A program made the position numbers and the translations under genes. 55,330 nucleotides of DNA from Candidatus Dormiibacterota bacterium. Lineage in GTDB: Bacteria; Chloroflexota; Dormibacteria; Aeolococcales; Aeolococcaceae. Below the pieces are notes generated by a model. That model was not told where the DNA came from and ran no database searches. It saw only the letters and a list, made by a program, of their open reading frames with translations. The DNA is taken from contig PNBE01000077.1 of the NCBI GenBank assembly GCA_003135895.1, positions 265 to 55,594 of the forward strand, given 5' to 3'. How positions within the stretch are numbered: the stretch's first letter is position 1; the number at the start of each line of letters is the position of its first letter. Positions 49,806 through 52,032 of the stretch are shown here, in pieces.

Positions 49806-50690
49806 TCAGCCCGAGTGCTTGCCCAGGCTCACCGCGGTGAGCCGGACCACATCCTCGATGGTGTCAGCAATCTCCGCGCCGGCAGCCAGCAGCGCATCGA
49901 TCTTGCTCTGGGCACTCCCGGTGTTGCCGCTGATGATCGCGCCGGCGTGGCCCATGCGCTTGCCCGGCGGCGCTGTCCGCCCGGAGATGAACGCCACCAC
50001 CGGCTTGTCAAAACCGGTATCACGGATCCAGGTCGCGGCATTCTCCTCGTCGGAACCACCGATCTCGCCGATGAGCACCACCGCGCGCGTCTCCGGGTCG
50101 TCGGCGAACCGGCGGAGCACATCGGGAAAGCTGAGGCCCATCACCGGGTCGCCGCCGATGCCGACCGACGTGGTCTGGCCCATTCCCGCCTGACCGAGAC
50201 CCTGGATGACCTCGTAGGTGAGCGTTCCGCTGCGTCCGACGATCCCCACGGGGCCGGGTGTATTGATGTGGTTGGGGATGATTCCCACCTTGCACTGATC
50301 GGGAGTCACGATCCCCGGGCAGTTGGCTCCGAGCAACTGGTGGCCCGAGCGAATCACGAATTCGCGCGCGCGGATCATGTCGTGCACCGGGATCAACTCC
50401 GTGATGCAGACCGTCAACTCGATGCCCGCGGCCGCGGACTCCATGATCGCGTCGGCGGCGAACGCGGGCGGGACGAAGATCCCCGAGACGTCGGCGCCGG
50501 TCGCGGCCACAGCATCGGCGACCGTGTCGTAGATCGGCACGCCGTCCTGATCGGTACCGCCCTTACCCGGTGAGACCCCGGCGACGATATTGGTCCCGAA
50601 GGCACGCATCTGCCCGGTGTGAAAGCTGCCCTCGCGCCCCGTGATGCCCTGGATGAGCACCCGGCTGTTGCTATCGATGAGGACGCTCAC
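49806..50690 (-). CDS. sucD: Succinyl-CoA synthetase (succinate-CoA ligase), alpha subunit
   Basis: 294 residues. The CoA-binding Rossmann domain starts [26 protein letters not shown] and includes [15 protein letters not shown]-like ([20 protein letters not shown]). [19 protein letters not shown] and [14 protein letters not shown] are conserved, and the phospho-accepting His is in [14 protein letters not shown]. With SucC it interconverts succinyl-CoA and succinate with nucleotide phosphorylation. GTG 50690 has GAGGGA about 6 nt upstream, and that site directly abuts the 3' arm of the 19-bp stem at 50701-50828. This gives the gene an unusual 154-nt structured spacer from sucC; these two genes usually overlap or almost touch. 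Confidence 0.95.
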
Positions 50691-50700
50691 AACGTTCCCT

Positions 50701-50828
50701 CAGTGGGGAGGGCATGAACGGAGGAGGGCCGTCTCGCAGCCCGGGCTACCCCCCCGGGCGAGAGCGAGGGGCGGAACGGCGAAGGCGTTCCGACCCCGTG
50801 CCCACCGCAGTTCATGCCCTCCCCACTG
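50701..50828 (-). ncRNA. Structured intergenic RNA-like element between sucC and sucD
   Basis: CAGTGGGGAGGGCATGAAC (50701-50719) and its exact reverse complement (50810-50828) form a perfect 19-bp closing stem. Inside are two further hairpins: GCCCGGG/CCCGGGC with TCTC/GAGA below it (50732-50763), and GGGG-c-GGAACG/CGTTCC-ga-CCCC (50768-50797). The predicted fold is a three-way junction of 128 nt. It fills almost the whole sucC-sucD spacer and ends 1-2 nt before the sucD Shine-Dalgarno, so it could affect translation or mRNA processing. No ORF, U-run or target-site duplication is seen. I know no matching family. Confidence 0.7.
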
Positions 50829-50844
50829 CCGCGCCAGACGCTGT

Positions 50845-52032
50845 TCATGAGCTCCCCTCTCTGGTGAGCGCGACGATGGTCGCGGCCGCTTCGGTCGCGG
50901 TCTTCGCCGGCACGATGCCTGCCGCCTCGAGCAACCGCCGGCCCTCCTCTTCCATGGTGCCGGTCATGCGCACCACCAGTGGCTTGGTGATGTGCAACTG
51001 GTCGCGTGCGGCGATGATCCCGCGCGCGACCTCGTCGCCTCGGGTGATGCCGCCGAAGATGTTGATGAACACACCGCGCACCTTGGGGTCGAGGAGCACC
51101 ATCTCGAGCGCGTCGCGCACGCGCTCGGCGTTCGCGCCACCGCCGATGTCGAGGAAGTTGGCGGGCTCACCCCCGTGCTGCTTGACGAGGTCGAGCGTGT
51201 TCATGGTCAGGCCCGCGCCGTTGCCGATACACCCGATATCTCCATCCAGGTGCACGTAGGTGAGACCACGCTTGCGTGCCTCGACCTCGAACGGATCTTC
51301 GCCGCTTCGTCCGTCCTCGCCAGTCTCATCGCGAGCGAGCTCTTCGGCGATGTCCCTGTGCCGGTACTCGGCGTTCTCGTCGATCTCCAGCTTTCCGTCC
51401 GCTGCGACGAGCATCCCATCGGGTGTGAGCACCAGCGGATTGATCTCGCACGTCAGAGCATCGAGCGAGGTCGCGACCGCATACAGGCGAGTGGTCAGCC
51501 CGACCAGGGTGCTCACCAGCTTCGGCCCCCGGTCGCGAAGCTCGGATGCGTGCGCGAGCCCCGCAAACGCCAGCTGGCGGATCTCGTACGGCTGCGGGCC
51601 GGCGAATGGATCCGGCCACAACTTGGCGATCCGCTCCGGCGCCTCGACGGCGACCTGCTCGATCTCCATCCCGCCTGCGGCCGAAAAGATGATCACGAGG
51701 CGACGGCGATCGCGGTCGAGCGTGATCCCGAGGTAGAGCTCGGCATCGATGGAGAGGCCCGTCTCGCACCAGACGCTGCGCACCGGGTAGCCGCGGATGT
51801 CCATGGCCAGGATGCGCGCGGCCTCGCGCTGCGCTTCCTCCGGGGTATCGACCACGGCGATGCCGCCCGCCTTGCCTCTTCCGCCGATCGGCACCTGCGC
51901 CTTGACAGCGACACGGCCGAGCTCGCGAGCGGCGGCGGCCGCCTCTTCAGGGGTCCGTGCCAGCCGGCCAGGAGGGACGGAGATGCCGGCTGCGGCGAAT
52001 CGGTGTTTCGCCTGATACTCGAGCAGCTTCAT
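50845..52032 (-). CDS. sucC: Succinyl-CoA synthetase (ADP/GDP-forming), beta subunit
   Basis: From ATG 52032 the protein has 395 residues, normal for SucC. It begins MKLLEYQAKHRFAAAGISVPPG, the standard N-terminus of the ATP-grasp domain, with AVKAQVPIGGRGKAGGI (nucleotide lysine region), CEINPLVLTPDG, ALDGKLEIDENAEYRH-like (ADGKLEIDENAEYRHRD) metal-binding residues, GCIGNGAGLTMNTLD and FLDIGGGANAERV, then NIFGGITRGDEVARGI. It binds the nucleotide and succinate. The open frame upstream overlaps the aldo/keto reductase end and is not needed. It starts 31 nt after that gene's stop and may share its transcript. Confidence 0.95.
   Translation of the reverse strand: MKLLEYQAKHRFAAAGISVPPGRLARTPEEAAAAARELGRVAVKAQVPIGGRGKAGGIAVVDTPEEAQREAARILAMDIRGYPVRSVWCETGLSIDAELYLGITLDRDRRRLVIIFSAAGGMEIEQVAVEAPERIAKLWPDPFAGPQPYEIRQLAFAGLAHASELRDRGPKLVSTLVGLTTRLYAVATSLDALTCEINPLVLTPDGMLVAADGKLEIDENAEYRHRDIAEELARDETGEDGRSGEDPFEVEARKRGLTYVHLDGDIGCIGNGAGLTMNTLDLVKQHGGEPANFLDIGGGANAERVRDALEMVLLDPKVRGVFINIFGGITRGDEVARGIIAARDQLHITKPLVVRMTGTMEEEGRRLLEAAGIVPAKTATEAAATIVALTREGSS

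Follow-up and report, generated by a model that had tools for sequence, protein, structure and literature searches.

The structured element in the spacer between sucC and sucD is, judged from sequence comparison, a copy of a small mobile repeat that had not been listed before and is restricted to a single bacterial family. The repeat is probably a palindromic, non-autonomous miniature mobile element of this lineage alone, for which we propose an enzymatic mover, template switching during replication at its strong hairpin, and a survival in operons that would depend on a very short reading frame bridging the two flanking genes.

The element occupies positions 50701-50828 of the window (the whole 55,330-nucleotide stretch of DNA analysed) and is read on the minus strand in the direction from sucC to sucD. 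These two genes, identified by Pfam as encoding the beta subunit (sucC, 50845-52032) and the alpha subunit (sucD, 49806-50690) of succinate-CoA ligase, also reside on the minus strand. The 5ʹ outer arm (50810-50828) and the 3ʹ outer arm (50701-50719) are exact reverse complements over 19 bp, as the first-pass annotation had reported. Its view that such a stem exceeds chance is borne out by 300 shuffles of the spacer, in which the longest perfect arm measured 12, and by the rank of this inverted repeat as the top one in the 55-kb window. The three-way-junction shape likewise recurs in the predicted fold, wherein the outer stem encloses core hairpin 1 (GGGGTCGGAACG..CGTTCCGCCCC, 50768-50797) and a bulged core hairpin 2 (GCTCTCGCCCGGG..CCCGGGCTGCGAGAC, 50731-50765) with a free energy of -94.4 kcal/mol (z = -6.7; 0 of 200 shuffles equally stable). 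The 3ʹ arm ends where it was said to end, at the Shine-Dalgarno-like sequence GAGGGAAC that precedes the GTG start codon of sucD, and the sequence after this arm is AGGGAACGTT. No U-run follows the hairpin, again in agreement with the earlier description, and an intrinsic terminator was thereby ruled out at this site.

A second copy, which is 91% identical, is located between purS and purQ in the same genome. Copies are present in all seven genomes of the window's genus, six of which keep the copy between sucC and sucD. In the seventh, G005, the site is empty and the two genes overlap directly by GTGA, consistent with the earlier statement that they normally abut. Diverged copies in other genera were found with one covariance model (R1), whereas family-wide and class-wide counts were made with another (R2). 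Among draft genomes that are 58-98% complete, R2 matches occur in 21 of the 32 genomes of the family, at 1-28 copies each (the maximum being the 28 matches in G014), and in nine of its 14 genera. There are no R2 matches in the 78 genomes of the class outside the family, including the 18 of the sister family. None of 80 suc loci from other organisms that were scanned with a covariance model carries the element, and no match was found in plasmid or phage collections. Likewise, no Rfam family matches it; the sole Rfam match in the window is a tRNA, the others being chance-level and far below the cut-off. The nearest named relatives of sucD, from MAG MAS3.bin112 and from a soil Chloroflexi MAG, are both 71% identical, which makes a Chloroflexota-like lineage likely.

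The genomic locations of these copies bear on the explanations that the first-pass annotation had offered, namely a sucD regulator, a processing site that sets the SucC:SucD ratio, or a miniature mobile repeat. The element resides in suc, pur, atp, trp, mur and other spacers, as well as between convergent gene pairs, and a role specific to sucD is therefore unsupported. The third option is favoured by the many unrelated loci, by copies in both orientations and by empty orthologous sites, which within the genus are found at sites D, E, F and C in addition to sucC|sucD. We infer mobility from these empty sites. The atpA|atpG site is occupied in several genera. Gene contexts were 29 co-directional, 14 convergent and 3 divergent with a first ORF calling (n = 46) and 36, 11 and 5, respectively, with a second (n = 52), compared with a baseline of 171, 48 and 48 gene pairs on contig 36 of G014. 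Because these counts vary with the ORF caller, we go no further than to claim a slight deficit of divergent spacers.

Several copies have unusual surroundings. Site D appears to be occupied in two genera (L038 and L040 in the window's genus g1 and L182 in G015, with flanks 72% identical on one side), which might reflect either an old insertion or reuse of the site. Four copies in G013 (L266, L267, L268 and L082) share 90-195 nucleotides of similar sequence past the right arm, which points to a mobile unit of larger size or to duplication of the surroundings. At the end of contig 65 of G006, two element fragments (L200 / L040) lie in tandem, perhaps because the repeat interrupted the assembly there.

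At coupled gene pairs, the element carries a reading frame that links its neighbours. A 53-amino-acid mini-ORF (50687-50848, minus strand) runs through the whole sucC|sucD element, starting on the stop codon of sucC (ATGA) and ending on the start codon of sucD (GTGA); its predicted peptide includes NCGGHGVGTPSPFR. Such a bridge is intact in 23 of 23 readable alleles at five coupled gene pairs, a count that does not amount to 23 independent trials. All six occupied sucC|sucD alleles are bridged across spacers of 117-196 nucleotides, two of them by two short frames joined by ATGA. The same is true of the five readable alleles at purS|purQ (the sixth, in G006, is interrupted by assembly Ns), of four alleles from four genera at atpA|atpG, where the mini-ORF exits 6-19 nucleotides ahead of the start codon without overlap, of five alleles at trpG|trpC (four by script, with L259 read by hand), and of three alleles at murB|ddl, two of which are identical over the element and where entry is by TGATG rather than NTGA. 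When suc and pur spacers were shuffled and placed in a random frame, bridges arose at a rate of 0.19-0.26 per allele; because alleles at one site share ancestry, we claim no product of these probabilities.

The bridge has been retained through repeated changes in spacer length. Moreover, an inversion of the core yields a wholly different peptide yet leaves the bridge in place, and thus it is the bridge, not the peptide, that appears to be kept. With a relaxed test applied to all co-directional copies, 11 of 25 are bridged versus 6.7 expected, and because this excess is modest we limit the claim to coupled gene pairs. Bridging characterises coupled sites and does not extend to the element wherever it occurs.

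The conserved two-hairpin core is enclosed by an inner stem, which has an internal loop, and this stem in turn by the outer arms. Within the window's genus, the arms are similar across sites, and the inner ~20 bp of the arm is common to different sites, so the arms there travel with the element. In other genera, arms are copy-specific. Across 33 copies, the left arm scores a mean of 21.7 against its own right arm and 4.9 +/- 3.3 against the right arms of other copies. For example, the G015 copies L181 and L185 have cores that are 100% identical, whereas the identities of their arms, 0.67 and 0.50, are at about the chance level of 0.56 +/- 0.06 obtained with random 24-mers. Compensatory changes in related genomes, for which a search had been proposed by the first-pass annotation, do exceed both types of control: within the genus, 66 paired changes affect both sides of the stem, while shuffles give 19.4 and slid controls no more than 9. 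The annotation had posed covariation and the presence of many copies as alternatives. Both were found, and rewriting of the arms, probably by template switching, explains the covariation at least in part.

Evidence for such rewriting comes from individual copies. The left arm of L049 contains CTCACCGCGTAG, which repeats in inverted form the end of the right-hand gene together with its stop codon. This sequence is absent from empty relatives and from L046, an orthologous copy with flanks ~94% identical to those of L049. Similarly, the left arm of L042 contains CGCGCTGAG, the end of its right-hand gene in inverted form. In addition, the core is inverted in place, with flanks in the same order, in some alleles at six sites: sucC|sucD, purS|purQ, trpG|trpC, murB|ddl, mutM and, across genera, atpA|atpG. 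Homogenisation of the arms and inversion of the spacer between them are known outcomes of template switching at inverted repeats (PMC8604942), a process that also creates and maintains hairpin stems (PMC8794818). This process is the likeliest cause of both arm change and core flipping, and for that reason covariation alone is no evidence of RNA function here. A more specific possibility, which we raise only tentatively, is that the element represents a new class of mobile repeats with an invariant core that gains fresh, perfectly complementary arms by inverted copying of host flank at or soon after insertion, with the frame open either way. If so, the element would rebuild its own stem at every site.

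Each of these features can be set against other readings. A functional structured RNA selected for its fold, such as a processing site, stabiliser or attenuator (e.g. an RNase III cut that sets the SucC:SucD ratio), would account for the strong predicted fold and the covariation, for the retention of the sucC|sucD copy in most genomes of the genus, and for occupancy of atpA|atpG across several genera. We nevertheless regard this as unlikely, given that the core occurs in both orientations at the same site, that convergent and other contexts contain copies too, that G005 manages sucC|sucD without the element, that translation of the mini-ORF would melt the fold, and that mutation alone can yield covariation between arms (PMC8794818). 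The arms might instead be target DNA, acquired by insertion into long host palindromes that already existed, such as terminators. Copies with identical cores and different arms fit this idea, as does the inclusion in some arms of the end of the adjoining coding sequence. However, no short-loop palindrome with arms of at least 14 bp is present in 346 kb of G014, a genome rich in copies, the palindrome is missing at empty sites, and different sites in the window's genus share the inner part of the arm; insertion of this kind is thus quite improbable.

The small size, intergenic location, palindromy, copy number and lineage restriction of the repeat also recall REPIN-like elements moved by a RAYT (Y1) transposase. 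This origin is the most doubtful of those considered, because 20 of the 21 element-carrying genomes lack a Y1_Tnp domain (a Y1 transposase was found only in G043, with a domain search that gave matches in E. coli and other controls) and because the core consists of two conserved hairpins rather than two inverted REPs. The other mover looked for, reverse transcriptase, has a distribution that does not track the element. At the suc site, NTGA is present on both sides of the element, though no clean target-site duplication emerged.

For the mobile repeat that we favour, the following series of events could be envisaged. The element would be moved, now or formerly, by an enzyme, and its strong hairpin would then provoke template switching during replication. 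This switching would keep the arms complementary, flip the core, and sometimes copy host flank into the opposite arm. In tightly coupled operons, survival would be confined to copies that retain a stop-to-start mini-ORF, because translation of this frame would deliver the ribosome to the downstream start: a ribosome leaving the upstream gene would restart on the mini-ORF, unwind the element and reach the next start codon. By passing ribosomes on to sucD in this manner, the mini-ORF would allow the element to be tolerated within sucCD rather than to regulate it.

The same build, in which a long self-complementary stem surrounds a two-hairpin core, is also seen in a second family of repeats, whose core is different. 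Examples are L225 5398-5508 and L235 2145-2277 (25398-25508 and 222145-222277 of G014 contig 36), and there are nine matches in G014 and further ones in G015 and G009. The majority of these span mainly the core (about positions 32-115 of the query), and so the arms of this family also look copy-specific; in two copies that were folded, the arms differ. This second family suggests that arm-renewing behaviour is not bound to one sequence. More elaborate arrangements were also encountered on contig 36 of G014. An apparent main-family copy (L237 18828-19008; contig positions 278828-279008) has an extra hairpin within core hairpin 1, which is possibly a nested insertion, and larger nested inverted repeats at 193056-193270 (L233) and 213371-213543 (L234) have perfect outer arms of 16-17 bp plus inner arms.

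These repeats provide a data set, both natural and replicated, where perfect RNA-like covariation can come from a mutational process rather than from selection on RNA, and they call for caution in covariation-based RNA discovery. They also appear to be an independent example of a mobile element made harmless in operons through a coupled mini-ORF, and one that is tolerated at genes as essential as those for ATP synthase and succinate-CoA ligase.

The closest parallel to the bridge is found in the MIRUs (mycobacterial interspersed repetitive units), which were reportedly first described by Supply and colleagues in 1997. These short, apparently mobile repeats insert at start codons and carry an internal ORF that is coupled, at a spacing of -4 nucleotides, to the following gene, an arrangement that likely limits the cost of insertion (PMC12548453). 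The present element similarly sits at start/stop overlaps with a coupled ORF, in this case at five gene pairs. Unlike the mycobacterial MIRUs, it forms a three-way junction with a long perfect stem, is flipped at the same site, occurs in convergent spacers as well, has copy-specific arms and belongs to an unrelated host lineage. Because this palindromic, flipping and arm-variable anatomy differs from the description of MIRUs, which rather than their sequence was the basis for comparison, we do not file the element among them.

As in MITEs, the element is small, multi-copy and bounded by terminal inverted repeats, and it does not code for a transposase. The bacterial MITE-like repeats ERIC / RU-1 are ~127 bp long, intergenic, strongly folded and lineage-restricted, with ORFs in more than one frame (PMC10969869, PMC2759123). 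The element resembles them in size, palindromy, strength of fold, intergenic location, lineage restriction and open frames. It differs from ERIC, as described in enterobacteria and vibrios, by its copy-specific arms and core inversion. A parent transposon was not found among Y1 transposases and reverse transcriptases, nor was a clean target-site duplication identified. To our knowledge, neither copy-specific outer arms around a conserved core nor in-place inversion of the core has been described for ERIC.

Rickettsia palindromic elements are also mobile, measure ~150 bp and keep a reading frame open on insertion (PMC10969869). They share with our element the combination of a palindromic mobile repeat and a retained open frame, but often lie inside genes and encode a conserved peptide, whereas the element lies between genes and its peptide changes when the core flips. 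Finally, quasi-palindromes corrected by template switching exhibit the same homogenisation of arms, creation of stems and inversion of spacers. Those are general mutational events, whereas here the changes are seen repeatedly on a single family of repeats, in which the conserved core of ~65-95 nucleotides is the spacer. The element belongs to none of the known families tested, and its unusual traits are copy-specific arms combined with core flipping, together with a bridge that is kept between coupled genes.
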